DNA of 64,000 bases from Planctomycetaceae bacterium (GTDB taxonomy: Bacteria > Planctomycetota > Phycisphaerae > Phycisphaerales > SM1A02): NCBI GenBank assembly GCA_947490615.1, contig CANLHK010000012.1, positions 1-64,000 of the forward strand. Direction: 5' to 3'. This document shows, in pieces, positions 11,200 through 35,878 of this stretch; position 1 is the first letter of the stretch; every line of letters begins with the position of its first letter. The notes under the pieces were generated by a model, which was not told the DNA's origin, ran no database searches, and was given only the letters and a program-made list of their open reading frames with translations. A program made the position numbers and the translations under genes.

Positions 11200-11522
11200 G
11201 ACCCACTCCTCAGGGGAACGCCTGAGGGAAAGCGAACGAACCGGCACCTGGGCTGAAGAGGCGGCGGATGGAATCGAGGGGGCCCTGCTCACACGAAGGA
11301 TCCCTGTCCGCGTTGGTCTCGGAAGCCACCAAGGTGCTCCTCCCTGACTTCTCTTCCCGCGAGTCTTGCGGTCCATGTTCGGATGACGCCACCTCAACCC
11401 AGGTCCACCTATCGGTCCAAATTGGGAAACCAAGTAGGCGCTCTGCGCGGACCATGCGCTACATTCAGAACTTGCCCTGTATCTGTCGGGCCCCATGTTT
11501 CCCCTGTGCATCGGAGATCCCC
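11200..11522. other. Divergent promoter region
   Basis: About 320 bases separate the start of the NtrC-type regulator (leftward) and a dockerin protein (rightward). Open frames on both strands run through it but lack ribosome sites. It should contain both promoters; I could not pick out a confident sigma-54 or sigma-70 element. Confidence 0.4.
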
Positions 11523-13335: not shown

Positions 13336-13362
13336 GGTTTGATCAACCGCGATCGATCAACC
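13336..13362. terminator. Possible hairpin between convergent dockerin genes
   Basis: GGTTTGATC (13336-13344) can pair with GATCAACC (13355-13362) with one bulged T. It overlaps the stop codon of the leftward gene. It is weak, and could serve as a bidirectional terminator in the 31-base gap. Confidence 0.3.
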
Positions 13363-14766: not shown

Positions 14767-14935
14767 GTTGGAAACTCCAGGATCTGGCGCCCCTCCGCCT
14801 GCTCCTACGACTCCGCGATGCACGGACGCATCACCGCGGACTCGCCGTGACAACGCCACGCTGTTGCTGCCTCGCTCACCGAGCAAGCCCAAGTGGGGCA
14901 TCTACCTTCGGTGGCGCGGTGTGAGTTGCCAGGGC

Positions 14936-17098
14936 TCACGGACACGGCCCCCACTCGCTGAGCATCTGCGCAGCATCCATCGCATTCACGAACCCGTCGC
15001 CGTTCAGATCGCCCCACTCCGATCCCCATGCTTGCAGCAGCAACGCAAGATCAATCGCACTGACGGACCGATCTTGATTCAGATCGGACGGGCAACACGC
15101 GGTGCACGCTTCCTGCGCCGCCGCGACGCACTTCGCGTCCCATGCAACTTCGCAGCAGCGCGCATCGCTCGCGCAGACCAGTGCGCAACAGACACTGTCG
15201 TTGCAGCCCGGGTTGGTGTGTTCAGCGCAGCAACTTCCTGCCAGTGCGCCACCGCAGGTTTCGACGCACAGCTGTGTCGCGGCCGCTGCGCAGGAAAGGT
15301 CCCATGCCGCGCTGCAACACGCGGGATCACTCACACACACCGCAGAGCAACACGCTGCATCGTTACAGGCAGGCATGGTGTGGGCCTCAAGACACAAGCC
15401 CGACTGCGGGTTTCCGCACACCGCACAGAGTGTCGAAGCGCTTGCAACACAGTCAGCGTCCCAGCCGGTTTCGCAGCAGCTTGGATCGACCGCGCAAACC
15501 GTCGCGCAGCAAGTTGGTTCGTTGCAGTAGGCGGTGCCGTGGGTCACGAAGCAGGAGTCGGTTCCTTCCGACCCGCAGGAAAGGCACGCCGTGCGTGCCA
15601 GCGATGCGCAAAGCCCATCCCAGCTCGCGTCGCAGCAAAAGGCATCGATGGCGCAGACCTCCACGCAGCAGACTGCGTCGCTGCATCCTCGATGAGTGTG
15701 GTGCATCAGGCAAGATCCCGCAGCGGGTTCGCCGCACCCTGAACAGAGTGCCAGTGCCGCTTCGACACAGGGCGCGTCCCAAGCGCTGGTACAGCAATGC
15801 GCGTCGATCGCGCAGACCGCCGCGCAGCAGGCGCCATCGCCACAACCAGGAGTTTCGCGGGACTCAAGGCAGGATCCGCTTCCGCCACAGGAAAGTGGAC
15901 CGTCAATCGCGCAACGAAAGTTGGTAAACGCGAGTTTGGTTTCGCTGATCGCCCGCGCGTTGTCGCGCGTGGCCGAACCCGTTGCGGCACCCATCCACAA
16001 AACGCTTGGCGAACTGAAACGCGGCGAACTCGTGCCAGGCGTGTAGGCCATCACGGTTCGACAGAGCGTCCCGCCCTGCTCGTAGAAACGATGGCCCGTC
16101 GCGTAGGGAAAGACTCCGCCTGCGGCGCAGCCTCCACCATCTTCAGGCGCGTGACAGCAGCCCATGTTGTGTCCCAATTCGTGGGTGAAGGTCGTGTTGC
16201 CAATGCAATCGGCGGACACCACTGAGAAGCCGTTCGCAGCCGCGCCCGCTGTGTTGTCCTCAAGAATCCACGCGATCCCGCAGGCGTCGCTGTTTCCGCT
16301 TCGAATCAGCGCCACGAGATCGGCTCCGACGGTGTCGCGCAGCGCGTGCACCTCATCAAGGCGTCCATCGGTGCGCTCCGTGAGCAGCATGAGGTCGATC
16401 GCCATCGTGTCATTGCTCTCGTGGTAGCCGTGCACGGGAAGCGCGCCAACCAACCGCGCGGTGAGCGCGATCCCACTACCCGCGTAGATCTCGTTGGAGT
16501 AGGCGATGAGCCAGGAGATCGAGTCGCGCAACGCCGCTTCGTCACCAATCTGAGCCACCGCCGCGTCGGTGTACACGACGAGGACATCAACGACGGTGCC
16601 GTCGTCGCACGCACCTGCAACGCCACCGTCGCCCGCGGGGATTGCAGGTTGCCCGAGCATGTCGCGCCCCGTCGTCAGACACGGAAGATCGTGCGCCTCG
16701 TCTTCAACGCGCAAGGCACTGAGCGCTGGCGCCTCACTGGACACGACCACGCGCATCCCCGCCCCGCTCTCGATGGTTCCTGTCAGTCGATCGTTTCGCA
16801 GAAAGAGCGTGGCGCGAGCAGCTTCGTTGCCAGGTTCCGCAAAGACATAGAGGACGCCTCCGTCATGGCTGCTGCGCGAAGTAAGGAGCATTCCCCGCAT
16901 CGATCCGCCGCATACGCCGAGGCGCTCGATGCTGAGAAGTTCGCGCGGCATCGGTGCGGATGGACCAAGCGCGGTGAACGCCGCAGGATCAAACTCCAGG
17001 GTTTCGCCTGATAGACCGAGGATGTTGTTCGCGTTGGCCGCAGCCGATGCGACAACGAAACTCGCCACGATGACGGCGAGTGAGGCAAAGCCCACCAT
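14936..17098 (-). CDS. Secreted metzincin-type metallopeptidase with five Cys-rich repeats and dockerin
   Basis: The 720-residue product has a signal peptide, then an N-terminal region paralogous to the downstream gene. The zinc motif HELGHNMGCCH starts at residue 306 and the Met-turn TVMAY follows. Residues 409-669 form five tandem repeats of 53-54 residues, each with about ten cysteines in fixed positions and the signature CC..VC..D..CC...WD..C. Two dockerin-like loops end the protein (DLNQDRSVSAID and DLNGDGFVNAMD, final WGPCP). The ATG at 17098 has GGAG seven bases upstream and gives the better signal peptide; the ATG six codons earlier does not. The gene was probably duplicated with its neighbour, then gained or lost the repeat block. 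Substrate unknown. Confidence 0.9.
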   Translation of the reverse strand: MVGFASLAVIVASFVVASAAANANNILGLSGETLEFDPAAFTALGPSAPMPRELLSIERLGVCGGSMRGMLLTSRSSHDGGVLYVFAEPGNEAARATLFLRNDRLTGTIESGAGMRVVVSSEAPALSALRVEDEAHDLPCLTTGRDMLGQPAIPAGDGGVAGACDDGTVVDVLVVYTDAAVAQIGDEAALRDSISWLIAYSNEIYAGSGIALTARLVGALPVHGYHESNDTMAIDLMLLTERTDGRLDEVHALRDTVGADLVALIRSGNSDACGIAWILEDNTAGAAANGFSVVSADCIGNTTFTHELGHNMGCCHAPEDGGGCAAGGVFPYATGHRFYEQGGTLCRTVMAYTPGTSSPRFSSPSVLWMGAATGSATRDNARAISETKLAFTNFRCAIDGPLSCGGSGSCLESRETPGCGDGACCAAVCAIDAHCCTSAWDAPCVEAALALCSGCGEPAAGSCLMHHTHRGCSDAVCCVEVCAIDAFCCDASWDGLCASLARTACLSCGSEGTDSCFVTHGTAYCNEPTCCATVCAVDPSCCETGWDADCVASASTLCAVCGNPQSGLCLEAHTMPACNDAACCSAVCVSDPACCSAAWDLSCAAAATQLCVETCGGALAGSCCAEHTNPGCNDSVCCALVCASDARCCEVAWDAKCVAAAQEACTACCPSDLNQDRSVSAIDLALLLQAWGSEWGDLNGDGFVNAMDAAQMLSEWGPCP
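15092..15874 (-). repeat. Five in-frame 53-54-codon Cys-rich repeats
   Basis: Four units of 53, 53, 53 and 54 codons and a final unit of 48 codons. In the first unit cysteines sit at positions 2, 11, 16, 17, 21, 27, 28, 36, 44 and 47, and later units keep this register closely. W-D at 32-33 is invariant. The units differ in sequence, so this is an old protein repeat and not recent DNA slippage. Confidence 0.9.
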
Positions 17099-17281
17099 AT
17101 GGAAACTCCGATGCAACGACCGATTGATGCCTGCGAGTGCCAGCGCACCTTGGACAACGCGGTGCTACCTGTCATCGCCACGCCTTCGCTGCGACGCACG
17201 TCGCAACCTTGCGGACGATGCGCGATGGCGCGTGGCCTTTCAGTTCATCGATGATTCGAACGCATGTTGGGGACATCTGCG

Positions 17282-17398: not shown

Positions 17399-20300
17399 TT
17401 AGAAGTTCACTTGCCAACGAAGTCCGACTGCGTAGTCGACACCCGCCGTGTAAGAAGTGTTCACGATGTCGCCGTTGGGCAAGTAGTCGGAGCGATAGAC
17501 CGTCTGAATCTCGGGATTCAGCAGGTTTTTGGCCTGGAAGAACACACTGAACTGCTCGCCAATCTTCTGCTGCAGCGTGAAGTTCAGCGTGCCAAACGGC
17601 AGCGCATAGATGCTCGGAACGAAGTTTCCCGTGTCCATGCCCGCGCCAGTCTGCAGTGTGTCACCGACGACGGTGTAGAAGATGGACGCCTGCGTACCGA
17701 GTGGCTCCCACTCGTAGGAGATGTTCGCGTTGAGCAAATACTGCGGTGCGCCCGTCATGTCACGGGTCGTCACCTCAAAGCCAGCCTGCTCAAAGACCGC
17801 CTGCTCGGACTCAGGAAGCGTGACCTCCGAGGCGATCGAAGTCGCGTTGAATCCCGCAGAAAGTCCCGCGAGATCTTCGTGCAGCTCGCGACCTTGCACA
17901 CGGACCTCAAACTCAAACCCGAGCAATTCGCCGCGCGGGTAGTTGATCGCCGAGGTGTAGACGAAGCCCTGTGGCGCCTCAAACTGCGCGTACTCGATGG
18001 TGTCGACAACCGACTTGTAGAACAGAGAGCCAGAAACCAGCCAACCTGGATGCGGCGTGTAGTCGAGCCGCACATCAAAGTTGTCGAGCTCGGCCATACG
18101 CAGCTCAGGATTCCCGATGAAGATCGGCCCGCCGAGATACTCCTGTTGCAAGACGGGCGTGAGCTCGCGGAAGGTCTGACGCGCCACCGTCTGCGCGACG
18201 GCCGTGCGCAGAACGATCTCCTCGGTCATCTGCCACTGCGTCGACAACGACGGCAGCGCGCGTTCTTCGTTGAAGTCGACATTGGCCGCATCAGGGTTGC
18301 CCGCGAAATCCACGGGAACCAAGGCTCCAGGCGGAAACCACACCGCGTCCTCTTCGCCGTGCACGGTGGTCGAGAGCGAAGTCGACTCGAGTCGCACACC
18401 AGGAATGAGGTTCCAGTCCTCGCCGATCGGGAGATCCGCCATGACATAGAGCGCGCTGATGCGCTGCTCGCCGTCGTAATCGACATCGAAGGTCGAGTCG
18501 TAGATCGGATGATCTTCCTGCGGAAAGTGCGCGCTCCACGGATCGTCCCAGCCACCGATGTAGAAAGTGTTGGGGTCGCTCGCGCGATTGCTGTAGGTGT
18601 CCTGGTGGTACGAGCGGTTCACCTCGTCGTGAAAGATGCCTGTCTTGAGGTAACCCAAGCGCTCGGAAGCCGTCTTGAACGGGAGCTTCATGTTGACTGA
18701 GATCTGCTCGCTGGTCTCCTCGATCGACTGCGTGATGTGCTGCACCCAGCCGAGATTGATGTTTTCTGCAGGCGTGTACGGCAACCAAATGCCTGGCAGC
18801 GACGGATCGATCGCATCGGAGGGCGGCAGCCAGATCGAAGCAAACTGCGTCTTGTCGGGCTGGCTCCAAGTGGCGGTGTTCGACGAGAGCGTCCAATCAA
18901 GGATCGGCGCCTCAAATGCACCGAATCCTGTGTCCGCGGCCAGCGTGTGCTCACCCTTGAGGATGATCGACTCGGTGGTGGTCTCGGTGTAGTCGAGCGT
19001 CTCGAGGCGCTGGTACGGCGACGCAAAGAGCAGCTCGTTGTTCGCCGTGCTGCTCGGATTGTTCACATCGTACGGAGGCAGCGGACCGAGGCCGAAGAAC
19101 GACCAATCGAAGGTCGGCCCGCAGAAGTACTCCTTGCCGCGCGTGTTGGTGGCGAGCGTCGTCGTCGACTGCGAGAGATCGGTGTAGAGATAGGTGAGCC
19201 CAATGCGTGTCGTCTCCGTCTCAAGTCCTCCGCTGGCGAGTCCGCCCCACTGCACGCTCTCGGAGCCTTGCTCGACATCGAGCAAACTCGACTGAAACTG
19301 ACCTTGGCTCGGTGTGCCTTGTCCGAATTGCGGAACAACACCTTCGGTTGGCGTGATCCACCACGAGTCGTTCTTGCCGTTGTTGAAGTAGGAGCTGTCG
19401 CGCTCGTAGAACAAGCTCGCGAACCCGCCAACCTTGACGCCTTCATCAAGCTCCCACTTGCCGCCGCCCGAGACCGACCACTTGTACTCCAGCCCAGGCG
19501 CGTCACCGCGCGAGGCGCCGACAGGATTCGACCAACTGCTGCCGATGAGATCGAGCGGAATGCCCGCGCCTTCGTACTGTCCCCACTGCCCGAGGCTCGA
19601 GCCTTGGTAGGAGAGAAAGTCGTTGCCCGCGCTCTTGACCTGCGAGTTGTAGCCCGTCTGAAACTTGAACTGCAGCGAACTCTCGTCAGGGATGTCCTTG
19701 AGATCAATGTTGACCGCGCCGCCCGACGCGTCACCTTGTTGGTCGGGCGTGAAGGTCTTACTCACCTGCACCGACTGGATGATCGCCGATGGAAACTGAT
19801 CGAGCTGCACAGCGCGACGCTTGGCATCCGAGGTCGGCAGGCGCACGCCGTCGAGTTGCGCGCTCACATACCGATCGGGAAGTCCGCGCACGACGGCAAA
19901 CTTGCCGTCCTGCACCGTTGCGCCAGACACGAGCAACAGCGCTGCGGCGGCATCACCTGCACCAGCCTTGGCCATCATGTCAGCGCCGATGGAATCGAGG
20001 AGTTGCGGACTCTCAAGGCGAAGCTCGAGGAGCGACGCCTCTGAGCCACCGAGCTCAAGCTCCTGCACCACGACTTCGTCCATGTCTTGGAACTCACCCG
20101 CGAGCTGCGCATCAAGATCCGTCAGACGACCTTCGCCGATCAGCACATCCTGCTTGACTTGCCGAACGAATCCGTCCTTCACGATCGTGACGGTGTAGCG
20201 GCCAGGCAAGAGATCATTGAAGACGAAGTTGCCTTGGTCGTTCGTGGTGACCTTGAGACCGTTCTCCACAATCGTGATCGTGGCACCCGTGATCGGAGCG

Positions 20301-20416
20301 GAAAACTCGCGATCAAGGATGACGCCGCGCAGCGAACCCGCCTGTTGCGCCAAGGCGGTCGAGGTCAGGATGAAGACAACACAGGGAGTCGTCCAAAGGG
20401 CGCGGGTGAGGTTCAT
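17399..20416 (-). CDS. TonB-dependent outer-membrane receptor with carboxypeptidase-regulatory-like N-domain
   Basis: The 1005-residue product has a signal peptide (to about Ala23-Gln24), then a carboxypeptidase-regulatory-like beta domain (~27-105, GVILDREFSAPITGATITIV). A plug domain follows (~110-240) with the typical AVVRGLPDRYVSAQLDGVRLP and GGAVNIDLKD segments. A long 22-strand-type beta barrel ends in aromatic Phe (RWQVNF), the usual outer-membrane signal. It imports a substrate across the outer membrane using TonB energy. It is the last gene of the DUF3450-exbB-exbD-tonB-TPR run, 72 bases after the TPR gene, so its own energy supply is encoded beside it. The substrate cannot be read from the sequence. 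Confidence 0.94.
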   Translation of the reverse strand: MNLTRALWTTPCVVFILTSTALAQQAGSLRGVILDREFSAPITGATITIVENGLKVTTNDQGNFVFNDLLPGRYTVTIVKDGFVRQVKQDVLIGEGRLTDLDAQLAGEFQDMDEVVVQELELGGSEASLLELRLESPQLLDSIGADMMAKAGAGDAAAALLLVSGATVQDGKFAVVRGLPDRYVSAQLDGVRLPTSDAKRRAVQLDQFPSAIIQSVQVSKTFTPDQQGDASGGAVNIDLKDIPDESSLQFKFQTGYNSQVKSAGNDFLSYQGSSLGQWGQYEGAGIPLDLIGSSWSNPVGASRGDAPGLEYKWSVSGGGKWELDEGVKVGGFASLFYERDSSYFNNGKNDSWWITPTEGVVPQFGQGTPSQGQFQSSLLDVEQGSESVQWGGLASGGLETETTRIGLTYLYTDLSQSTTTLATNTRGKEYFCGPTFDWSFFGLGPLPPYDVNNPSSTANNELLFASPYQRLETLDYTETTTESIILKGEHTLAADTGFGAFEAPILDWTLSSNTATWSQPDKTQFASIWLPPSDAIDPSLPGIWLPYTPAENINLGWVQHITQSIEETSEQISVNMKLPFKTASERLGYLKTGIFHDEVNRSYHQDTYSNRASDPNTFYIGGWDDPWSAHFPQEDHPIYDSTFDVDYDGEQRISALYVMADLPIGEDWNLIPGVRLESTSLSTTVHGEEDAVWFPPGALVPVDFAGNPDAANVDFNEERALPSLSTQWQMTEEIVLRTAVAQTVARQTFRELTPVLQQEYLGGPIFIGNPELRMAELDNFDVRLDYTPHPGWLVSGSLFYKSVVDTIEYAQFEAPQGFVYTSAINYPRGELLGFEFEVRVQGRELHEDLAGLSAGFNATSIASEVTLPESEQAVFEQAGFEVTTRDMTGAPQYLLNANISYEWEPLGTQASIFYTVVGDTLQTGAGMDTGNFVPSIYALPFGTLNFTLQQKIGEQFSVFFQAKNLLNPEIQTVYRSDYLPNGDIVNTSYTAGVDYAVGLRWQVNF

Positions 20417-20488
20417 AGTGGACTCGGCGTCGGAAAGTGTCGGCGTCGGGTTGGTGCGTGGTGTGTCGAGGACGCGATGCGTTCAGGC

Positions 20489-21904
20489 TCAGCGCCGCGA
20501 CTTCGCGATGCGCTCCACTTGCTCGAGGTAGCGCGCCACGTCTTCACGCGGCTTGAGTTCTTGTGCTTGGCGAAGCAGTGGAATCGCGTCAGCAAAGCGC
20601 GACTGGCGCACGGCGATCTGCGCTTGGCGCACCTTCGCGCTCGCCGCGAATTTCTCGATGCCCGCCGCGCGCTCGTAGGCGAGCATCGCCTTCTCGACAT
20701 CGCCATCCTTGCCCGTCGAGGAGTAATGCTGAGCAAGCAACATGAGCGCCTCGCCGTCGAGTGGATCAAGCTTGATGATCTCTTCGAGCATCGCGGCGCT
20801 CTCATCGCCTCCTTGACCAGTCGCCATGGCAAGCCGCGAGTCGAGTTTGAGTATCGCGCGAAGGTCCGCAGGTTCGATCGTGTCTTTCTTTGCAGCGCGA
20901 ATCGCACTGACCAGTGCGCGCGCCTGCGTCATGCCGCTGCGAGCGGCAAGTTGCTCAGCTGAGCGCATCGGACGCGCGATCGGCTGCTCCCGATTCAGCG
21001 CCATTGCCCGCGCGTACGCGGCGTAGGCGAGGTCAGGCAAACTCTCGGTGAGGTAGATGTCGCCAAGGGTGTAGAGACTGTCGAGGGTCGACTGGCCGAG
21101 TTCATCCATGGCCTCAAGGTTCATCGCTGCCTTGAGCGGCTGGCGCATGCCGAGGAAGGTGTGCGCTTGCAGCATCCAGAACTCAGCCTTCGTTGGATAG
21201 TTGGTGATGAGTACATCAAGGAGCGCCGCGGCGTCATCAAACTTGCCCTGCTTGAACACGCAGCGCGTGAGGCCAAGTCGCCACTCCACATTGTCGGGCT
21301 GCAAGAGCAACGCGTTGCGATACGCGCTTTCGGCGGGCTGAAAGTCCTGCCGCGAAGCGTGGGAGAAACCCAGCAATCCGTAGGAGTAGGGATCGGCGCC
21401 GCCGAGTTCGATCATGCGATTGAATCCCGCGATCGCTCCCTCGAAATCGTTGTTGCGCACACTGATGAGGCCAATGTTTCGAAACGCGCGTCGGAAGGTG
21501 GGGAACTTCTCAACCGCCTTGCGAAACGACACCAGCGCGTCCACCAGCTTGTCCTGCTGAAACAGAATGCCACCAAGCGTGTAGTCGAGAATCGGCGAGC
21601 AGTCGGGCTTCATCGCCTTGCGAAGCTCCGCTTCCGCCGTCGGCAAGCTCTCCGCCATCAAGGGGCGCACGCGCTCGAGCACGGCGACCTCTTCCTTGGT
21701 GACGCGCGGCTCGATCTCGGCGTTCACGCCATAGCCAGCGACAAACTGCTTCTGAAAAGTCGGATCGTTCCAGATCTTGGTGAGCTCCTCGCTGCGAAAC
21801 GCGATAGCCGAACGGTTCGCAGCGTCGTCGACCGCGGCCGTTGCCGCGCAGAGGAATGAACCGTTCAAGAGTGTGCCGACGAGGACGATGGTGCGGAGAT
21901 TCAT
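20489..21904 (-). CDS. Secreted TPR protein of the TonB operon
   Basis: The 471-residue product has a signal peptide (MNLRTIVLVGTLLNGSFLCAATAA) and is otherwise a chain of tetratricopeptide-type helical pairs, for example around PTAEAELRKAMKPD, DALVSFRKAVEKFP, FEGAIAGFNRMIEL and AESAYRNALLLQPD. TPR proteins are known at the end of Vibrio TonB2-type operons, where they are thought to help assemble or stabilise the complex. The same role in the periplasm is inferred here. The start at 21904 was chosen over a 24-codon upstream extension because it gives the signal peptide. It lies 32 bases after tonB. Confidence 0.88.
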   Translation of the reverse strand: MNLRTIVLVGTLLNGSFLCAATAAVDDAANRSAIAFRSEELTKIWNDPTFQKQFVAGYGVNAEIEPRVTKEEVAVLERVRPLMAESLPTAEAELRKAMKPDCSPILDYTLGGILFQQDKLVDALVSFRKAVEKFPTFRRAFRNIGLISVRNNDFEGAIAGFNRMIELGGADPYSYGLLGFSHASRQDFQPAESAYRNALLLQPDNVEWRLGLTRCVFKQGKFDDAAALLDVLITNYPTKAEFWMLQAHTFLGMRQPLKAAMNLEAMDELGQSTLDSLYTLGDIYLTESLPDLAYAAYARAMALNREQPIARPMRSAEQLAARSGMTQARALVSAIRAAKKDTIEPADLRAILKLDSRLAMATGQGGDESAAMLEEIIKLDPLDGEALMLLAQHYSSTGKDGDVEKAMLAYERAAGIEKFAASAKVRQAQIAVRQSRFADAIPLLRQAQELKPREDVARYLEQVERIAKSRR

Positions 21905-21936
21905 AGGGTTGCAACCTTGGACTGCGAACTGCCTGT

Positions 21937-22656
21937 TCACCGTGACTGAAAGCGCACGCCAACGCGCATGCGGCAAGCGACGCGCTGGCCGCCCTTCACA
22001 CCAGGCTCAAACTTCCACTGCCGCACCGCTTCGAGAGCTGGCTTCTCAAACGCGGGATGCGCGGACTTCTCGATGCGCGGGCTCTGCACGCGGCCCGCGC
22101 TGTCGACGATGAAGATCACCGTCGCGACGCCTTCGACCTTCTTGCCGCGGAGTTCAGCGGGGTAGTTGCCCGCGGTCTGGTAGACGGCGCGTGGGCCTTG
22201 ATCGATCTCGCTCAGGCTGAACGCCTCTTCGAGTTTCTCTTCGCTGATTCCACCTCTTTTCCCGCTGCCGCCGATGACGCCGCCCGAGTTGAAGTCCATC
22301 ACGGCCGCGAAGTCGCCGCCTCCACCACCCACGCCGTTCAGCGCCTGTTCAATCGCGGCAAGGCTCGCCTCGGCGAGCGCAGGTGCGCTGTTGACGGGCG
22401 CGGCTTCGAGCGTTCGCACGATTTCGGCGGCGTCGGGAATCTCTTCGGGCTCTTCCTTCAGTTCCTCGACAACCTTCTCTTCGTCGGGCGTCTGCTCATC
22501 CTTGGGCTTCTCTTGCTCGGTCTCGCTGAGCAATTCAACATCGCGCGCCGCGCCGTTGCCTGAATCGTCGTGCGTAAAGAGAATGCCGCCGAAAGTCAGG
22601 AGGAGAACATGAAGGATCACGGCGCCTGCGATGCCGAGGATGGTTGCGAAGTTCAT
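21937..22656 (-). CDS. tonB: TonB energy transducer
   Basis: The 239-residue protein has one N-terminal membrane helix (about 5-27). Its periplasmic linker is rich in Glu, Pro and Lys, unusually acidic compared with the classic Pro-Lys linker. The C-terminal TonB domain (about 155-239) has YPAELRGKKVEGVATVIFIVDSAG and WKFEPGVKGGQRVACRMRV. It spans the periplasm and passes energy from ExbB/ExbD to outer-membrane receptors. The ATG at 22656 has GAGG upstream and starts 13 bases after exbD; the frame runs further back inside exbD without support. Translation is probably coupled within the operon. Confidence 0.93.
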   Translation of the reverse strand: MNFATILGIAGAVILHVLLLTFGGILFTHDDSGNGAARDVELLSETEQEKPKDEQTPDEEKVVEELKEEPEEIPDAAEIVRTLEAAPVNSAPALAEASLAAIEQALNGVGGGGGDFAAVMDFNSGGVIGGSGKRGGISEEKLEEAFSLSEIDQGPRAVYQTAGNYPAELRGKKVEGVATVIFIVDSAGRVQSPRIEKSAHPAFEKPALEAVRQWKFEPGVKGGQRVACRMRVGVRFQSR

Positions 22657-22669
22657 CGATGCGCCTCGT

Positions 22670-23098
22670 TCACTTCTTGTCCGTGTTGATGCCGACTTTG
22701 GCGATGCCGATTCGGCGAACCTCATCGAGCACGACGACGACATGTTTGAAGTCCGCACCCGCATCGGCGTTGATGACGCACTTGGGGTCTTTGGCCTGGG
22801 TCTTGTAGGTTTGAAGCTTGAGTGCGAGTTGCGCGGGCGTGATCTTCTCCTTGTTGAAGAAGACCTCACCCTTGTCGTTCACGCTGAGCGTCACCGTCTT
22901 ATCCATCTCCGATTGATCGCCAAGCGAGGTCGAAGTCGACGCGGTGGGCAATGCGACTTGCACACCTTGGTTCTTCGTCATCGAGAGCGACACCATGACG
23001 AAGGTGGCGAGCAAGAAGAAGATGATGTCAATGAGCGGGATGATCTCGAGGCGCGCCTTCTTGCGTTTGCCTCCGCCACCAGAGGATCCACCAGCCAT
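22670..23098 (-). CDS. exbD: Biopolymer transport protein ExbD
   Basis: The 142-residue protein has a basic cytoplasmic tail after a Gly-rich start, one membrane helix (about 19-40) and a periplasmic domain. Asp24 in PLIDIIFFLL matches the essential proton-path aspartate of ExbD/TolR. It forms the proton-driven motor with ExbB and TonB in the inner membrane. It starts 3 bases after the exbB stop. Confidence 0.95.
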   Translation of the reverse strand: MAGGSSGGGGKRKKARLEIIPLIDIIFFLLATFVMVSLSMTKNQGVQVALPTASTSTSLGDQSEMDKTVTLSVNDKGEVFFNKEKITPAQLALKLQTYKTQAKDPKCVINADAGADFKHVVVVLDEVRRIGIAKVGINTDKK

Positions 23099-23101
23099 GG
23101 C

Positions 23102-24607
23102 TCAGGCCCCCCCAGCGGTTGCGGCGACCGCGACGCTTGGTTCGGGAGATCCATGCGAGCGCGCAGGCGCGTGCTCGCGATGACTGTGACTTGCCTTGCC
23201 GTTGTCAGGATCGACGAGCAAGCGAAGCTGCGCCGACGCCGCGCCGATTTCGTTCTCGATCTCTTCGATCTTGGCGTTGAGGTAGTTGAACGGCAAGAGA
23301 CAGGTGATGGCCACACCCAGCCCCGCGGCGGTCGCGATGAGCGCTTCGGCGATACCACCCGTGATGGCGCCTGGCGAACTCAGGTCGCCGCCGATGACTG
23401 CGAACGAACCCATCATGCCCGTCACGGTGCCAAGCAAACCGAGGAGCGGAGCAAGCGTGATGACCGTGTCCAACACCGCGATCCCTCGACGGAAACGCTT
23501 GAGCGCGCGCGCTTGAGCAAACGCCAACGCATCAGTGAGCGACTGGTCGCGGTGCTCGAGTGCGTAGCCGAGCGTGGTGACGATGCAGTCCTTGGACTTG
23601 CGTGCGATGTCGATCGCGGCGTTGAGATCCTTCTTCTCGATCGCGCCAAAGAATCGGCTCTGCGCCTTGCGATCTCGCTGTCGCTGTTCATTGAGAAGGA
23701 AGAACACGCGCTCCAACACCACCGCCAGCGCGAGAATCGACGCCAAGAGAATCGGCCACATGATTGGGCCGCCCTTGATGAAGATGTGCACGAGGTTGGT
23801 CTTCTGCACCAGCGCCTTGAGCGCGCCACCGCGTGACGGATCGAGTGCGAGCGTTCCTTCGCCTGAAGCGATGAGCGCGCCGACGGTTGGTTCCAGCGAA
23901 CCCTCGAGCGGGCGAATGAGTGGCTTGTCGGAACCTGCCTGTGGAATCGCCAGGCCAGCCGCGCCGCTGGTCGCGCGAAAGAGCGCCACGGGACCGATCA
24001 TCGCGAACTGACCTTCAGCAACCGTGCCGAGCATGTCAACGCCGACACCCGCGAAGCGCGTGCCGCCGACGACATCGAAGGCGCGCTTGATCGAGCCGTC
24101 GACGAAAGTCGTCTGCCGCTCAAACCGCTGCGGCAGCGTGAGCGTGGTGTTCTGCAACGCGTCTTTGGCCGAGGTGATGGCCGCGCCGACAACTTGGAGT
24201 TCGACGGGGTTGATCTTGGTCTCGAAGTTGCGCGCGTACTCGTCGAGCAGATTGCCCACATAGGTGAGCTCATCCTGGCGCGCCTTGAGTTCAAGGCGAA
24301 TACGCGCCATCTCTAACGCGCCCTCGTCGACCACGCGGGTGGTTCGATCGTTCTCCTTGCGAAGCTCGGTCACGCTCTCTTCGAGCGTCGTGAGTTGCTG
24401 GGAGAGCGGAAGCTTTTCGGCGGCGACCTGCTCGCGAAGCGCATTGAGCTCCGCGATGCTCTTGCTGAGTCGCTCGTCGGCGCTTTGCGCAACCTTGGTC
24501 AGCACCTTGGTGGTCGTCGGATCAGGAGACTGCGCGCGCACGCCGCTCGTGAGAGCGGTCGCGGTGACCAACGCGGCAAGAAGTGAGAGGCGATGCATCG
24601 TGTTCAT
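23102..24607 (-). CDS. ExbB/TtpC-type MotA-TolQ proton channel protein with long periplasmic extension
   Basis: The 501-residue product is about twice the length of classic ExbB. It has a signal peptide (1-26), then a ~240-residue periplasmic region whose first part (about 40-120) is a probable coiled coil. The MotA/TolQ/ExbB core starts at about residue 280: first helix PIMWPILLASILALAVVLERVFFLL, then the two conserved helices LAPLLGLLGTVTGMMGSF and ALIATAAGLGVAITCLLPFNYL. In Vibrio this long form is TtpC and acts alongside a short ExbB2; here no short ExbB is present, so this one may serve both roles. A His-rich C-terminal tail follows the core. It is the second gene of the run, 7 bases after DUF3450. 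Confidence 0.92.
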   Translation of the reverse strand: MNTMHRLSLLAALVTATALTSGVRAQSPDPTTTKVLTKVAQSADERLSKSIAELNALREQVAAEKLPLSQQLTTLEESVTELRKENDRTTRVVDEGALEMARIRLELKARQDELTYVGNLLDEYARNFETKINPVELQVVGAAITSAKDALQNTTLTLPQRFERQTTFVDGSIKRAFDVVGGTRFAGVGVDMLGTVAEGQFAMIGPVALFRATSGAAGLAIPQAGSDKPLIRPLEGSLEPTVGALIASGEGTLALDPSRGGALKALVQKTNLVHIFIKGGPIMWPILLASILALAVVLERVFFLLNEQRQRDRKAQSRFFGAIEKKDLNAAIDIARKSKDCIVTTLGYALEHRDQSLTDALAFAQARALKRFRRGIAVLDTVITLAPLLGLLGTVTGMMGSFAVIGGDLSSPGAITGGIAEALIATAAGLGVAITCLLPFNYLNAKIEEIENEIGAASAQLRLLVDPDNGKASHSHREHAPARSHGSPEPSVAVAATAGGA

Positions 24608-24614
24608 GGGAGAT

Positions 24615-25478
24615 TCACTTGATGTTCACGGGAAGCGGAACGAAGTCGGGGACCTGCTTGCCTTGGATGATTTCGAGTGCGGTGAGAATCGCGTTGGCCG
24701 CACCTGGTGCGGCTTCCCACTTCCAGCCCTCCGCCGTTGGACGACCGATGCCCGCCACGCCACGCGGCGAGATGTAGTAGGCCTGCGCGAGTCCGACATA
24801 GAGACATTGGACTTCGGCGTTGGTGCCGTCGGGCAGTGCACGAACTTCGTACACGACGCTGAGCTCGCTGTTGGCCTTGTTGATCTCGTTCAGAATGCCA
24901 AGGACATTCTGGAAGCGCTCGGCGACCGAAACTTTGGTCGTGGCTGAATCGTCGGGCAGACGCGAGAAGAGCGGCGCGAGCTTGAGGCGCACCGGCTCAG
25001 GAATCATCGGCGCGATGGTCTTGATCTGCGCCTCCATCGAACCAACGGCAGCAATGAGTTGGCTGGCGGTTGCTTGAAGCTGTTCGCGCTCAGCGGCGAG
25101 CCCCGCGAGAGTCTTACTTGACTCACCGACATTCGCCTGCGCTTGCGCGACGCGCTCCTGCAGCCCCGTCACCTCCTTACCGATGAGCTCGATGCGGCCG
25201 TTGAGGATCTCCTTGCCCTGCGTCCACTCGTGTCGCTCACGACCGATGAGTTGCTGGGTTTCGATCCACTTCCCCATCGTCACGCGCGTCTCTTCGAGCG
25301 TCGGCTCGGAGCCTCCGTCTTGGTTCGGTGCCAGCGCGACGAGCGGAAGGCCGATCGCCACCGCGAGCGCGCCGAGACGCGAGGCACTTCCAAGTTGGCA
25401 CTGGAACGCCGAGACAAAGTGGCGCGAGGAGGGATGACTGATCGTTGAAGAGTGGCGTGGGGTCGGCTTGGCAATCAT
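24615..25478 (-). CDS. DUF3450 family periplasmic protein of the TonB system
   Basis: The 287-residue product matches DUF3450 in its long coiled coil (about 60-170, KWIETQQLIGRERHEWTQGKEIL) and in the C-terminal domain (VQCLYVGLAQAYYISP, GWKWEAAPG). DUF3450 proteins are typically encoded just before ttpC-exbB-exbD-tonB genes, as here, and are taken to be periplasmic partners of the energy complex. The N-terminal ~50 residues contain a hydrophobic export segment (about 32-50) after an unusually long polar stretch, so the true start may be further downstream; no better start codon stands out. Confidence 0.85.
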   Translation of the reverse strand: MIAKPTPRHSSTISHPSSRHFVSAFQCQLGSASRLGALAVAIGLPLVALAPNQDGGSEPTLEETRVTMGKWIETQQLIGRERHEWTQGKEILNGRIELIGKEVTGLQERVAQAQANVGESSKTLAGLAAEREQLQATASQLIAAVGSMEAQIKTIAPMIPEPVRLKLAPLFSRLPDDSATTKVSVAERFQNVLGILNEINKANSELSVVYEVRALPDGTNAEVQCLYVGLAQAYYISPRGVAGIGRPTAEGWKWEAAPGAANAILTALEIIQGKQVPDFVPLPVNIK

Positions 25479-25610
25479 GGTGTGTCGCGCTCCGATTATT
25501 CAGAAGGCGCACAGTAGGAATGCTCACTTTGCCCTTGGCAAACATCTGAACAGCGTTGCGTGAAGACGATGTGTGGATCGTGTCAAGAGGCACGCGCCGC
25601 GTCCTCAGGT

Positions 25611-26837
25611 TCACCAAGGCGCAACAAGACCTTCACGAATCGCCGCAAGCGCATCGCGCGTCGCCGCGTCAGGCTCGACGCCTGAGCGCGATATGGAGAT
25701 GGCCGTCTGCACGAGGTCGTCAGTGCGTGGTCGCGCATTCGGATTGACGATGCCCTCGCGCAGCGCTTGCGCGTACACGCGACGCGCACTCGTCTTGTCA
25801 CCGACTGCGGCGTAGCCCTCGGCCAGCGCGCGCAGAGGTCGAGCGCGAGCGATGTCGACGATGCGATCTCGCGCAGCCGCGAAGATCTCTTCTCCATGCA
25901 GGAGGCTCTTCGTAGCTGCATCGAGATCAGCCGTACTTGCGAGACGCGCTTGCGTCGTCGCGATCAAGGCGACTTGCACGACTTGGTCGTCAGCCATCCA
26001 GGTGCCTGCAGCCAGCTGGGACTCCGCCTGGCTGATGAACGCGCGCGCGGCGTCGAGGTCACTTTGCCGCCGCGCGATGTCGGCCATGCGCAGCAGAATG
26101 TCGATGCGCACTTCCAACGGCAATTGCGCGTTGGCGAGGGCGACGGCCGCTTCGACGCGCGCTCGCCGCGCGGGTTCCTTGAAGGTCGCTGGATAGAACT
26201 CAAGGCAGATCTCCACGGCGTTGCGCACGAGATCGAAGTTCTTAGTCTTGAGCCAGTCGTCGAGCGCAGTCATCTGCGCGTCGAATCCGACCTCAGGTGC
26301 GCGGGCAGCGCGTGCGGCCGCGACCTTGCCCATTTCAGGTTCGCCGACGCCTTGCTCGAGCCGCGCGGCTTCACTCTCGTCGCCGATCCAGGCGTAGGCG
26401 CGGGCCACCATCACTTGGATTCTCTCGCGCTGCCAATCGAGCTGCGTTTGAGCAAGAGCCAACGCCTGCTTTGCGAGCACTCGTGCGTCATCAACTCTGC
26501 CAGCTTTCGCTTCTTCGAGTGCCACGGCCGCCAGCAAGGCACCGCGACGCCAGCCTTCAATACTCCGCGCGCGTTCTGCAGCGCGGGACGGAAGGTCCGC
26601 GTCAAGCAAGGCGAGCCCCACCGCTTCCTGCAGCCGCGCGCGATCTCGCGCGTGGGCAGCGCTCTGCATGCGATCGGCGGATTCAAAGGCGAAGTCCAAG
26701 AGCGTTTCACGCCAAGGCGCTTCCACCACGGCTGCTTGCGTCGCGGTTGATGCCTGTACCGCCGGTGCGAGCGGCTGCGGACAACCACTCTGAAGAACGG
26801 CGACCTGGGCAAGAACGAGAAGTGAGATCAGTTGCAT
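25611..26837 (-). CDS. Helical-repeat (TPR-like) lipoprotein
   Basis: The start at 26837 gives a lipoprotein signal with LQSGC (Cys19). The 408-residue product is Ala-rich and entirely helical, with TPR/Sel1-like pairs such as RVDDARVLAKQALALAQTQLDW and SDLDAARAFISQAESQLA. No catalytic motif is visible. It lies between the beta-helix dockerin gene and the DUF3450-TonB genes on the same strand (gaps 114 and 132 bases), so it may be part of the same envelope system. Family not recognised. Confidence 0.75.
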   Translation of the reverse strand: MQLISLLVLAQVAVLQSGCPQPLAPAVQASTATQAAVVEAPWRETLLDFAFESADRMQSAAHARDRARLQEAVGLALLDADLPSRAAERARSIEGWRRGALLAAVALEEAKAGRVDDARVLAKQALALAQTQLDWQRERIQVMVARAYAWIGDESEAARLEQGVGEPEMGKVAAARAARAPEVGFDAQMTALDDWLKTKNFDLVRNAVEICLEFYPATFKEPARRARVEAAVALANAQLPLEVRIDILLRMADIARRQSDLDAARAFISQAESQLAAGTWMADDQVVQVALIATTQARLASTADLDAATKSLLHGEEIFAAARDRIVDIARARPLRALAEGYAAVGDKTSARRVYAQALREGIVNPNARPRTDDLVQTAISISRSGVEPDAATRDALAAIREGLVAPW

Positions 26838-26951
26838 GGTGAGTCGTGAGTAAGAGAGAGAACACTCAAGGCGCTCGGCGGTGCCAATGCAACCGCCGAG
26901 CGCCAGGTGTTCAAGCATGCGAGTTCCGTACTCTCGCCTGCAGTCGAGTGC

Positions 26952-28697
26952 TTACGGGCAGGTGCCCCAGCCGTTGAGGAGGAGAGCGAGGTCGGGTGCA
27001 CCGACGATGCCGTCGGCGTTCAGGTCGGCCGTGGTGTTGCCGGCGCCCCACTCAGAGAGGATCTGCGCGAGGTCGGTCGCGCTGACCGCGCCGTCGCCGT
27101 TGAGGTCACCGATGCAAGGAGCCGCGATGACGCAGCCACCTGGAGGAGCGACATTCATGCCGTACGCATCAGCAGCAGTCCAACCGCAGAGCCAGTTCTC
27201 CGTCGGGCCGAAGGCGCCGCGATAGGAGACGGGGCTGAAGAAGCCGTCGTTGGGCGCAGTACCGTTGGACTGCACCGCATCGTTGGCTGCGCGCGGATCA
27301 AGCGCAATGACGGGCTTGACTGCGAGCGTGATGGTTGGATTCACCACTGGACCACGGGTGATCGCCGCGATTGGGAGCGTCGTGGCCGTGACATTGGAGT
27401 TGCCCTTGGCGCGCACGCCGCGGAGGTCAGCCTCGGTGTAGGCCGCGGTGTTGATGTTGTTGTAGAAGACCGAGTCCTTGATCTCGTTGAGATTGCCGCT
27501 CGTCTGCGACTGGTAGAACGACGCAGTGTTGGCAGGCGCGTTCACGGTCGGATAGGTGTTGAACGGCGTGGTCCAAGTGGCAGCCCAAGTATGGGTGCCG
27601 TTGAAGCCGTAACCAGCGCCACCGTCGCCGTCGATGTTGTCGTTGGCCACGAGCCTCTCGCCGAGGTCCATGAAGATCGACTGGCGGATCTGCGAGCGCG
27701 CGTTGTCGCGGTAGGCGACGCCGTGGTCGCCACCGTTCGAACCCGTTGCGTTCGATCCGTTGTTGCCGATGACGGTCATGTTGTACATGACGCTGGTGCT
27801 GACAGGCTGGTAGTCGGACTGCTCAGCGCCGTCCATCTCGATGCAGTTGTCGCCAACGCCCGAGCCTTGCGCAGCGTTGGCCGCGTAGCCCTGCACGATG
27901 AGACCGAACTGCACCTTGCCGCGCCAACCCTGATCGATGTCAAGGCTGTCGTCGCCGATGTTCCAGATCGAGATGTACTGAAGGTTGACCGTGCCGCCCC
28001 AGATCTCGATGCCGTCGTCGACGTTGTTCATGATCTCCATGTGATCGATGATCGTCTCTTTGCCAACGCCGCCGAGCGAGAGACCGTTGAGCTCGTTGTT
28101 GAGGCCGATGACCTTGCCGCCGTAGCGGAACGAGCAGAACGCGAGCGTGCCGCTGTCGTCGAGATCGTTGCCACCGCCGTAGAGAACATTGGTGTCGCCG
28201 GGAACCGCAGCAGTGAGACCTTCCATGGTCGCGATGTTGTTCGCGTTTGGAGCGGCCGTATTGGTGACGACGGCGTTCTCGCTGATGTACGCGCGACCCA
28301 TGATCGTCAGGTTGCCCCATTCATTGCAGACGGGGCGCCAGGTGCCCGACTTCGGGTTGCCCGCAGTCCAAGTCGCGGTGTCGTTGGTCGAGGTGAAGAT
28401 GATCGGCTCCTCTTGGGTGCCGACGGCGTTGATCTGCGCGCCGCGAGTCACCGCAAGCGAACCACCGAGTCCGCTGGTGGAAGCGATGATCGTGCCTGGT
28501 TCGATGGTGAGCGTGGCGCCAGGGAGCACATAGATCTGCGTCTGCAGGTTGTAGGTGTTGCCCTTGGTCCAGGTGGTGGAGCTGGTGATGTTGGCCGAAA
28601 CAAGGACTTCGGCGGCGAGCGCGTGGGTGGAGAGCACAGTGGTGGAGAGCACAGTGGCTCCCGCAAACGCAACGACGATGGCAAGATTGGTCTTCAT
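26952..28697 (-). CDS. Secreted right-handed beta-helix protein with C-terminal dockerin repeats
   Basis: The 581-residue product has a signal peptide and a repetitive body typical of a parallel beta-helix (ATLTIEPGTIIASTSG, SLAVTRGAQINAVGTQEEPIIFTS, WGNLTIMGRAYISENAVV, DDGIEIWGGTVNLQYI, DDSLDIDQGWRGKVQFGLIVQG). Proteins of this build often sit next to carboxypeptidase-regulatory-type TonB receptors in other bacteria; their function is unknown. The C-terminus has two dockerin-like loops (DLNGDGAVSATD and DLNADGIVGAPD, final WGTCP). The h-region of the signal peptide carries a 15-base tandem duplication. It is the likely secreted cargo or surface partner of the downstream TonB locus (inference). 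Confidence 0.82.
   Translation of the reverse strand: MKTNLAIVVAFAGATVLSTTVLSTHALAAEVLVSANITSSTTWTKGNTYNLQTQIYVLPGATLTIEPGTIIASTSGLGGSLAVTRGAQINAVGTQEEPIIFTSTNDTATWTAGNPKSGTWRPVCNEWGNLTIMGRAYISENAVVTNTAAPNANNIATMEGLTAAVPGDTNVLYGGGNDLDDSGTLAFCSFRYGGKVIGLNNELNGLSLGGVGKETIIDHMEIMNNVDDGIEIWGGTVNLQYISIWNIGDDSLDIDQGWRGKVQFGLIVQGYAANAAQGSGVGDNCIEMDGAEQSDYQPVSTSVMYNMTVIGNNGSNATGSNGGDHGVAYRDNARSQIRQSIFMDLGERLVANDNIDGDGGAGYGFNGTHTWAATWTTPFNTYPTVNAPANTASFYQSQTSGNLNEIKDSVFYNNINTAAYTEADLRGVRAKGNSNVTATTLPIAAITRGPVVNPTITLAVKPVIALDPRAANDAVQSNGTAPNDGFFSPVSYRGAFGPTENWLCGWTAADAYGMNVAPPGGCVIAAPCIGDLNGDGAVSATDLAQILSEWGAGNTTADLNADGIVGAPDLALLLNGWGTCP
28626..28655. repeat. 15-base tandem duplication inside a signal peptide
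   Basis: GGTGGAGAGCACAGT occurs twice head to tail and duplicates five residues (VLSTT/VLSTH) of the beta-helix protein's signal sequence. It is in frame and probably a recent slippage. Confidence 0.9.
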
Positions 28698-29085
28698 GGG
28701 AATGGGGTCTCAAGGGGTACGGCACGCAAGACACTTCGAGAAGCGATCAAACCTGCTGCGGTTCTTCGCAGCGTCACCAACGACACGATCGTGGTGCGGT
28801 CTCATCGCCATCGAATCCTCGCACCCGAGCGTTCATCGCCCGTGTGCGCTGCGTGATCCTCGGGCGCAGATTCGGTTCAGAAACGAATCGCTCTCTTGGA
28901 TCAGGCGAGTGGCAGGCTAGAGGTCGATTGTTTGGATGCTGTGTAGAACGCGTGTGGGCTCGGTAGCGACTTGGGCAAGAACTCGCGCTCTGCCGCGGCG
29001 CGCCAAATGAACAGCGGCCCCGCGCAGACGAATTCGCGTCCGCGCAGGGCCTCCGTGTCTCTCGATGATGGTGCTCAGACCTCGC
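28698..29085. other. Gap upstream of the beta-helix gene
   Basis: About 390 bases with no supported gene. They should hold the promoter of the beta-helix protein (leftward) and the 3' end of the preceding transcript, whose probable terminator hairpin lies at 29016-29051. Confidence 0.45.
29016..29051 (-). terminator. Strong GC-rich hairpin after a dockerin gene
   Basis: GGCCC/GGGCC, GCGC/GCGC and GACG/CGTC stack in order, separated by single C-A and A-C mismatches, around the loop AATTCG. It starts 35 bases past the stop codon of the leftward gene at 29086. No clear T-run follows, so termination is inferred from place and stability. Confidence 0.5.
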
Positions 29086-30252
29086 TCAACGCCAACTGTT
29101 CAGAATGATGGCGAGATCGCCACCATCGACCAGTCCACTCTCGTCAAGGTCATACGGCGGATAGTGCACGCCCCATGTGGCGAGGATCTCCGCGAGATCC
29201 GCGCCGTTGATATGTCCATCGCGATCAAAGTCCGCAGCAAAGATGGCCAACTCGCGCCGCCCGTAGATCAAGCCGCTCTGCGAAGGCACGGCTGCTTCGA
29301 GGAACATCGTGAACTCTGCATTGAAGAACGCTGCGGTCGTGTCGCACGAGCCTGACCATTGCGGCGCGCCGTTGTTGGCCTGCCAGCGGAAGTCGTAGAG
29401 CCGAATCACCGCAGCGCTGTTGTTCATGCGCGCCAGTGCGGTGTGCGGCGTCGAGCCGATCGGTGGCGGACTCTTACGGAGAAACTGCGCATCGGCAGCA
29501 AGCGTGCCGCGCGGCGCGTAGGCCGCGGAGATCGTCACGGTGTTCGTGACACCGACCACGACGCGCACCGTACGCAGCATGCCTTTGACAGGCTCGAGCA
29601 TGACGATGTCGAGGATGAGCGATGGTGCCTGACGCGCAGCGCGCGCGCGCAGAAAGCGCCAGCCTGGTCCGAGCGCAATCTCTGCCGATTGAATCGCTGC
29701 GGACATCTGCACCGCCGTAGCGCGCGCCACTGGTTCGCCTTCAAATCCATCGGAGAGTCGAACGCCCGCAATCCCATCGATGGCGAGCACCGCGAGATCG
29801 TTGAATGCAGCGGTCTGCACGAGGACTGTGTTCGTGGAAGTGAGCGCGACCGAAGTCACATGGCTGAGCGGTCGCGCGAGAGCCGTCGCCGCAAGTTGCG
29901 CTGCTTGCCCCGCGGTCACGGTGCAGAGGTGCAGCCGCGGCAGAACAGGAATCAATTCAAGGCGCTGCAGTTCGGTGAGCGCGTCTCCAGCAACCGCGGC
30001 GGGAGCTCCCGTCAAGGCGTCGATCTCAACATGCCAACCGAAGTCAGGCTTGTTGCTCGGACCAAAGACCACGCACATCATGCGCAGCGTGAGTGGATCG
30101 ATTTCGTAACCCACATGCGTGACCCGCAGTTCGGGAACGAAGGAATGTGCGATCGCGACGGCGTTGTCGAACGAGATGTACTGCGCCGACGCGGTTGTCG
30201 TGACCGACAGGCACAGCGCGGCGAGCGCGCGAATCGTGCGAACGATGTTCAT
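29086..30252 (-). CDS. Secreted protein of unknown function with C-terminal dockerin repeats
   Basis: The 388-residue product has a signal peptide (MNIVRTIRALAALCLSVTTTASAQ), and a start at 30252 with an AGGGG site. The N-terminal part (SFDNAVAIAHSFVP, DFGWHVEIDALTGAP) is reminiscent of PepSY-like protease-inhibitor domains; this resemblance is weak. Two dockerin-like loops end it (DFDRDGHINGAD, DLDESGLVDGGD), finishing in NSWR without the WGxC ending of its relatives. It is the most upstream gene of the same-strand run leading to the TonB system. I cannot assign a function. Confidence 0.78.
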   Translation of the reverse strand: MNIVRTIRALAALCLSVTTTASAQYISFDNAVAIAHSFVPELRVTHVGYEIDPLTLRMMCVVFGPSNKPDFGWHVEIDALTGAPAAVAGDALTELQRLELIPVLPRLHLCTVTAGQAAQLAATALARPLSHVTSVALTSTNTVLVQTAAFNDLAVLAIDGIAGVRLSDGFEGEPVARATAVQMSAAIQSAEIALGPGWRFLRARAARQAPSLILDIVMLEPVKGMLRTVRVVVGVTNTVTISAAYAPRGTLAADAQFLRKSPPPIGSTPHTALARMNNSAAVIRLYDFRWQANNGAPQWSGSCDTTAAFFNAEFTMFLEAAVPSQSGLIYGRRELAIFAADFDRDGHINGADLAEILATWGVHYPPYDLDESGLVDGGDLAIILNSWR

Positions 30253-35791: not shown

Positions 35792-35878
35792 TCGAGTCTG
35801 AACCACGCACGGCGACGCGATCTTTCGAGGATCATCCAGTCGAGCCACGCGAACCCCGCGAGCAACACGAGCCACATC

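Follow-up and report, generated by a model that had tools for sequence, protein, structure and literature searches.

A one-ExbB TonB motor of Planctomycetota behaves as a cassette interchangeable with a two-stator motor under the same receptor

Can a single ExbB protein stand in for the two that TonB2 systems possess, the long TtpC and the short ExbB2? To our knowledge, the reason why these systems contain two ExbB-type proteins is not settled. The question is raised by a locus of a Planctomycetaceae bacterium (Phycisphaerales, SM1A02) in which a TonB gene cluster encodes one long ExbB and no short one. We analysed a stretch of 64,000 nucleotides, referred to here as the window (positions 1 to 64,000 of contig CANLHK010000012.1 in the 3.26 Mb, 28-contig assembly GCA_947490615.1). 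Our main explanation, to which we give a probability of about 0.68, is that the locus encodes a complete, dedicated outer-membrane uptake machine with a one-stator motor cassette; of the motor part we are clearly more confident than of the whole.

All genes of the locus lie on the minus strand. The motor cassette begins with a DUF3450 protein (TtpB-like; 24615..25478; Pfam 3.2e-25), followed by the long ExbB of 501 amino acids (23102..24607; MotA_ExbB 4.8e-27), ExbD (142 amino acids; 22670..23098; Pfam 3.4e-27), TonB (239 amino acids; 21937..22656; start refined to MNFATILG; TonB_C 2.1e-16) and, as last motor gene in the position of TtpD, a tetratricopeptide repeat (TPR) protein (20489..21904; ATG start refined to MNLRTIV). 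Next comes a receptor of 1005 amino acids (17399..20416), which has the plug (PF07715, 9.8e-9) and barrel (PF00593, 1.6e-26) of a TonB-dependent transporter and an N-terminal CarboxypepD_reg domain (3.9e-15), a carboxypeptidase-type domain as in Oar of Myxococcus xanthus. From DUF3450 through the receptor, the intergenic gaps are 7, 3, 13, 32 and 72 bases. The genes transcribed ahead of the cassette encode first a secreted protein of dockerin-like type, then a beta-helix protein that ends in a dockerin tail and then a TPR-like protein. Reading of open reading frames, Pfam profiles and refined starts thereby bore out the gene content, order, strand and gaps of 3-72 bases given in a preliminary description of this DNA.

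The long ExbB consists of a signal-like N-terminus (by eye), periplasmic helices at residues 33-179, a small beta domain at 183-233 and a channel at approximately 274-465. In the channel, T394, E421 and T426, which we take to be the pore positions Thr/Glu/Thr of the E. coli numbering, and a motif ending in IATA were kept in all 20 single-type rows. Channels of the two-stator type had an extra Glu at position 427 (motif ITTE) in 23 of 26 long and 23 of 26 short rows. At the orthodox position of the pore Glu, gammaproteobacterial TtpC (n=4) had T, Q or M and gammaproteobacterial ExbB2 (n=4) had K, M or L (by eye); in the gammaproteobacterial TonB2 motors of loci L181-L184, neither subunit retains the pore glutamate. 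A channel tree of 50 of 167 rows placed the single-type channels and orthodox short ExbBs together on one side of a branch (support 100/99.7), and a constrained tree joining the single-type channel with TtpC was rejected (p-AU 0.0186). Quick tree searches, which were also used for the N-domain and for the receptor-side and motor genes, grouped the two-stator long channels with TtpC of Alteromonas and Vibrio (SH-aLRT 87) and the two-stator short channels with ExbB2 (SH-aLRT 75; the latter join connects long branches and calls for caution). They also split the single-type periplasmic N-domain cleanly from the two-stator versions. Comparison of the N-domains of gammaproteobacterial TtpC and planctomycete ExbB by hhalign gave a moderate score (probability 73, E 3e-5, 190 columns; control 1.0), and by this profile comparison the periplasmic part of TtpC is a remote relative of the planctomycete domain. 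The best Foldseek matches of the ExbB model were ExbB/ExbD and TolQR structures. Judged by its sequence, the long ExbB combines a TtpC-type periplasmic part with an orthodox ExbB channel. It had been described as a TtpC-type ExbB, which holds for the periplasmic part, but the channel is of the orthodox kind and the protein is therefore not simply a TtpC without a partner.

The same trees bear on the origin of the protein. The single form may be ancestral, with the TtpC/ExbB2 pair derived from duplication of a long ExbB, and the window protein would then be no fusion. In the channel tree, the two-stator long and short channels do share a side (SH-aLRT 73), and the N-domains of the one-stator and two-stator proteins are related to each other and remotely to gammaproteobacterial TtpC (hhalign probability 73, as above). 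However, the single-type channels lie near stand-alone short ExbBs that have no N-domain, which exchange of domains explains directly. The channel tree is unrooted. We consider this origin possible but do not favour it; it is compatible with our main explanation.

Two ways to account for the missing short ExbB had been offered: either one protein does both jobs or a distant ExbB is recruited. In the whole genome, the locus TonB was the sole match to the TonB_C profile and the locus receptor the sole match to the Plug profile, although these models could overlook very divergent proteins. Five MotA/ExbB proteins were found, the long ExbB included. The four others are one MotA, two ExbBs with two ExbDs each and one protein adjoining a T2SSG-like gene, and no TonB occurred in the 15-16 kb surrounding each of the four genes. 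The two ExbB sets resemble the TolQ-like sets with paired TolR-like genes reported from the Planctomycetes-Verrucomicrobia-Chlamydiae group (PMC12204202). A search with a short ExbB of the two-stator type found none in 18 of 18 single-form genomes (best 64 bits); the controls were a genome with two stators (G234, 273 bits) and the source of the query itself (G084, 469 bits). Were the long ExbB a TtpC deprived of its partner, it could in principle borrow one of the four other proteins, and the gene at position 110974 of contig C2 has no ExbD in the surrounding 16 kb that we could find. Yet none of the four resembles the two-stator short ExbB or has a TonB nearby, and the long ExbB has itself an orthodox channel with its pore residues kept. 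We regard borrowing from a distant gene as very unlikely, and the idea of recruitment found no support. One ExbB probably serves both roles, given a genome with neither another TonB_C match nor a short ExbB of the two-stator type.

How widespread is such a motor? We searched for the long ExbB in 150 genomes of the class and then read 20 loci. In the family, 62 of 181 genomes had a match at E<=1e-30, and in the phylum 70 of 392. Two main forms emerged: a single form with the order DUF3450 - long ExbB - ExbD - TonB - TPR, and a dual form with the same order plus a short ExbB after the long one. Classed by identity to the window protein rather than by reading each locus, the 62 family matches comprised 38 of the single kind (>=55% identity), 22 of the dual kind and two restricted to the channel. 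The genus of the window contains both: seven genomes were single-like, six dual-like and three had no match. The long ExbB was present in 49 of 61 loci scanned. Across 94 loci, including some duplicates and some cut by contig ends, the order of motor genes was constant apart from the optional short ExbB and a second ExbD in two; the beta-helix, TPR-like and receptor genes stood before the cassette, after it or on both sides. A third form was seen in L077 and L109 (both G596), L078 (G660) and L117, where an extra short ExbB precedes the TPR gene and has a channel of the same type as the long protein; two ExbB proteins appear to have been reached here in a separate way. At locus L092 of G209, further ExbB/ExbD sets flank the single-form locus on both sides (4777-6020 and 17654-19500).

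The dual form is a Vibrio-type TonB2 system. Pseudoalteromonas, Alteromonas and Salinivibrio share its six-gene order, and in the latter two the annotation of the final gene is TPR protein. In Vibrio vulnificus all six TonB2 proteins are reported to be essential, with ttpB2 (DUF3450) as first and ttpD2 as last gene (PMC6957404). From gene position, the planctomycete TPR protein may be a relative of TtpD. In a scan of named genomes, at least 45 loci with the long protein occurred among the best 80 of 282 relatives; the records of these 45 are assigned to Planctomycetota, Verrucomicrobiota, Lentisphaerae, Acidobacteria and further groups, and the labels of bins may err. One of them, the named strain Brevifollis gellanilyticus, has the single form. 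Ttp systems have been placed in 'vibrios and some marine bacteria' (PMC10734418), and the range of Ttp-type motors extends well beyond these.

Can the single and dual motors replace one another? We counted changes between the single and dual labels on gene trees, for which the motor genes were DUF3450, the ExbB N-domain, ExbD and TPR, with TonB left out; genomes with the extra short ExbB (G596, G660) and cut loci (G248, G233) were scored as single. The label changed 11 times on the receptor tree, nine times on the beta-helix tree and 10 times on the TPR-like tree, compared with once each on the DUF3450, N-domain and ExbD trees and twice on the motor TPR tree. Strongly supported branches alone demand at least eight changes for the receptor and at least seven for the beta-helix protein; shuffled labels gave means of 14 and 13, respectively. 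On the receptor tree the label was still slightly clustered, as 25-37 of 500 shuffles were as low as 11.

The clearest swap lies between a dual-form genome, G231 (locus L058), and the single-form loci L141 and L088 (the latter from G226, of the same genus as G231). L058 and L141 are 83% identical in DNA through the receptor gene up to position 3669 of L058, and no identity was found over the cassette. Identity returns at position 9267, within the final portion of the TPR gene (where it is 72% to L088), and stays at 83-96% downstream. The swap as mapped extends from the receptor stop codon into the 3' end of the TPR gene. At the protein level, the receptors of L058 and L088 are 92% identical, compared with 41% for DUF3450, 37% for the N-domain, 26% for ExbD, 48% for TonB and 46% for TPR. 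The window shows a similar disparity relative to the dual-form congener G229 (receptor 75%, beta-helix protein 76%, DUF3450 39%, ExbD 30%).

Errors of assembly or binning, or simple loss of a gene, might mimic such a difference without any exchange of cassettes: most relatives are metagenome assemblies, and contigs L085, L087, L094 and L095 end inside the cassette. But the four motor genes tested switch jointly, apart from one extra change of TPR, and the same junction is present in L088 and L141, which were separately deposited and are 96.8% identical across 9 kb. The single form moreover occurs in the named Brevifollis strain, and loss of one gene cannot yield identities of 26-41% in its neighbours. 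We consider an artefact highly improbable, the least likely of the alternatives discussed here. The single and dual motors behave as interchangeable cassettes that were exchanged repeatedly under the same receptor. As the cassette was exchanged many times under one receptor, the two motors are probably functionally equivalent for it. The strongest argument that one long ExbB can stand in for TtpC and ExbB2 together is this exchange in nature. With a near-identical receptor (92%) beside either motor in one genus and the junctions mapped, the question of what TtpC is for becomes directly testable.

ExbD within an ExbB pentamer turns proton flow into movement of TonB. In the machine that we propose, the single ExbB of the cassette would form a homopentamer in place of TtpC and ExbB2, proton flow via the ExbB/ExbD stator would move TonB, and TonB would pull the plug of the receptor. 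In the periplasm, TonB is probably braced or guided by a scaffold made up of DUF3450, the TPR protein and the coiled-coil part of ExbB. The receptor side would comprise a secreted, ElpS-like beta-helix protein, the TPR-like protein and one TonB receptor. Outside the cell, anchored or released by a lineage-specific tail, the beta-helix protein probably captures or mobilises a substrate, which would then be carried inwards.

The secreted right-handed beta-helix protein (26952..28697) ends in a double dockerin tail (4.3e-7 for Dockerin_1; 8.3e-8 for the GC-type dockerin of NCBIfam) and is a probable relative of the ElpS-type proteins found beside TonB receptors. Its structure was predicted with a mean pLDDT of 82.8. 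The profile had no match among solved structures, and Foldseek with the model returned generic beta-helices (AlgG, polygalacturonases; best E 0.003). Among the 392 genomes of the phylum, 50 had the long ExbB (counting those of the 70 matched genomes in which the match spans the N-domain), 52 had a strong beta-helix match (six of 58 with weak matches being excluded) and 49 had both. The two genes lay within 7.8 kb of each other in 45 of the 45 genomes that have both on one contig; in the other four they are on different contigs. G102 has the long ExbB without a beta-helix match, its contig ending in the locus, and G358, G460 and G617 have the beta-helix protein without long ExbB. In L044 (1-3006) and L066 (15008-18121), each open frame holds two beta-helix copies head to tail, which suggests tandem duplication.

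The TPR-like helical repeat protein (25611..26837) is a conserved partner of the receptor and the beta-helix protein. It had been taken for a lipoprotein and remains a candidate, with a non-canonical lipobox (LQSGC, by eye); in its family, a lipobox-like pattern was present in 17 of 62 members, the pattern being strict and missing some plausible ones. Across relatives, the TPR-like, beta-helix and receptor genes co-travel with the motor; a loss of synteny between upstream and TonB genes in relatives, which would have spoken against the preliminary description, did not occur. The second secreted dockerin-like protein (29086..30252), listed with them in the preliminary description, does not: a strong counterpart was found in one of 60 other loci (L095, 765 bits), with many loci ending short upstream. 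We treat it as a neighbour outside the conserved unit. The genes are found in this combination again and again across the phylum, which puts the arrangement of the locus beyond chance.

Dockerins had been presented as the cargo feature of the locus. The beta-helix protein does have such a tail, but the second protein, at 0.0017, falls short of the Pfam cut-off. What is conserved is the beta-helix core; the C-terminal tail differs by lineage, with the dockerin pair mainly in the family of the window and other tails elsewhere (by eye); the dockerin is therefore an incidental, lineage-specific tail. An energised sorting of dockerin proteins in general is unsupported. Within the window, further dockerin-like domains occur in the proteins at 11268-13325 and 4436-6799, with scores slightly under the Pfam cut-off, and as such tails are common across the window, dockerin neighbours are weak evidence of linkage. 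Directly downstream of the receptor lie two tandem reprolysin-like secreted metalloproteases (13357-17116), one with a dockerin tail. On the far side of the locus, a planctomycete cytochrome gene (PSCyt1/PSCyt2/PSD1) is followed by a DUF1501 gene (33059-37321).

Scanning of 18 genomes of the family for Plug matches yielded exactly one in 15 (14 at the locus, one on another contig), none in two with contigs that cut the locus, and two in one; in other families, several matches are possible, up to seven among 30 genomes scanned. A single receptor match in 15 of 18 makes these planctomycetes unusually simple TonB organisms.

We also looked at relatives of the beta-helix protein in plasmid records, examining eight of 21 with a match, and seven of the eight had a TonB receptor next to the gene. 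The TonB2 cluster of Alteromonas and Pseudoalteromonas adjoins such a receptor and a large protein in which the beta-helix is present in three copies (127-161 bits each); these triple tandem hypothetical proteins are located at L181:11991-16091 (Pseudoalteromonas) and L182:2-3637 (Alteromonas). In Hymenobacter, Aureibacter and Parabacteroides the gene adjoins a TonB receptor, and its counterparts in Indioceanicola and Sphingomonas are followed by a TonB receptor together with type II secretion genes. The layout seen in Sphingomonas is the one described from Caulobacter, where cc0170 (ElpS), cc0171 (a TonB receptor) and the genes of the type II secretion system (T2SS) are syntenic (PMC2996285). 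The same report has ElpS produced under phosphate starvation and secreted in dependence on the T2SS, names homologues in Shewanella and Bacteroides and suggests a functional tie to the receptor (PMC2996285). With these neighbours, a widespread hypothetical protein gains a likely role.

Could the receptor instead be a gate through which the beta-helix protein is exported or displayed, like Oar for PopC in Myxococcus (PMC6434023)? The linkage of beta-helix protein and receptor in several phyla and the single receptor match in the genome would fit such a unit. Against it, Caulobacter ElpS exits by the T2SS, deletion of the receptor gene was reported (as data not shown) not to stop ElpS production (PMC2996285), and the linkage persists among beta-helix proteins whose tails differ. 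We judge export unlikely, though less so than the borrowing of an ExbB, and retain uptake as the main explanation.

What would be taken up? By analogy with the homologues, phosphorus is the likeliest substrate, at odds that we put at roughly even. Besides ElpS, the Caulobacter T2SS has been placed in the PhoB regulon (PMC11208175), and in Flavobacterium, genes next to TonB transporters encode phosphate-induced lipoproteins that are related to a lipoprotein made by Caulobacter at low phosphate (PMC8115612). More tentatively, and with odds a little short of even, the beta-helix/receptor pair could be an ancient phosphorus-acquiring outer-membrane module of Planctomycetota, Pseudomonadota and Bacteroidota, which in the family of the window usually owns the only TonB receptor of the cell, with an interchangeable motor and an optional heteromeric ExbB stator.

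Several observations weigh against our main explanation. On the motor side, the extra short ExbB that follows TonB beside a single-type long ExbB in G596, G660 and L117 means that one ExbB is not always alone. The clade test of the channel was chosen with the quick trees already in view, and its bootstrap was still unsettled. The overall pTM of the ExbB model was low (0.42), homology between DUF3450 and the ExbB N-domain was not demonstrated (hhalign probability 0.8), and the profile of the planctomycete TPR protein had no match to gammaproteobacterial TPR proteins. As stated above, the relatives are mostly metagenome assemblies. On the receptor side, a Marinobacter record, one of the eight, had the beta-helix gene without an annotated receptor nearby. 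The link to ElpS runs through the homologous, syntenic Sphingomonas protein (39% identity to the window protein over 253 residues) rather than through ElpS itself. We scanned the regions upstream of the beta-helix, receptor, DUF3450, TPR and TPR-like genes with a Pho-box consensus. Sites were not enriched before the beta-helix gene (one of 51 at a score of at least 12; 0.45 expected), and the best scores before the two secreted-protein genes of the window were 10 of 14. Scores of at least 12 were in excess before DUF3450 (eight of 73 versus 1.05 expected, none at 13), possibly owing to sequence shared by close relatives. Nor did the flanks have a clear phosphate signature: among 90 of 101 flanking open reading frames, one PhoD was found in the 25 of 101 families listed, and the others could hold more.

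Finally, we compared the locus with known systems. Like the beta-helix protein of the window, Caulobacter ElpS (cc0170) goes with a TonB receptor, and such adjacency is seen in the gene orders of our loci; in the window, the motor cassette separates the two genes, and the unit is joined to its own TonB motor. Unlike at the ElpS locus, no T2SS genes were seen among the scanned neighbouring genes of the window, and ElpS is reported to have a lipid anchor in place of a dockerin tail. Of the Flavobacterium lipoproteins FI-FIII, from a different phylum, two are likewise encoded by TonB transporters, with no linked motor described in the available text (PMC8115612). The Oar/PopC system of Myxococcus xanthus also ties a TonB receptor to its own Ton genes (PMC6434023), with evidence of secretion of which the window locus has none. 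A survey of MotA/TolQ/ExbB homologues that bear large appendages in the periplasm, DUF3450 among them, described extra N-terminal domains on ExbB-like proteins as found here; in its available part, neither a relation to TonB2 nor an exchange of cassettes is described (PMC12505986). Nor did we find a published account of Ttp in Planctomycetota, of a Ttp system with one ExbB or of single and dual forms being exchanged in the literature searched, which left out most subscription journals.

The closest counterpart, known from Vibrio and further marine gammaproteobacteria, is the TonB2/Ttp system (TtpB, TtpC, ExbB2, ExbD2, TonB2, TtpD), with which the window shares the order DUF3450 - long ExbB - ExbD - TonB - TPR. 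Five of the six operon positions are filled in order, the TPR protein corresponding to TtpD by position only, and the separate short ExbB is lacking. The long ExbB has a TtpC-type periplasmic domain according to hhalign, but its channel falls outside the TtpC clade and is orthodox with a pore Glu, in contrast to the T, Q or M of the four gammaproteobacterial TtpC proteins; the window motor is further linked to one receptor. Strict membership in TonB2/Ttp thus fails on the absence of ExbB2 and on a channel that is not TtpC-like. As far as the literature was searched, the locus is a motor of the TonB2/Ttp kind in a previously undescribed one-ExbB version.

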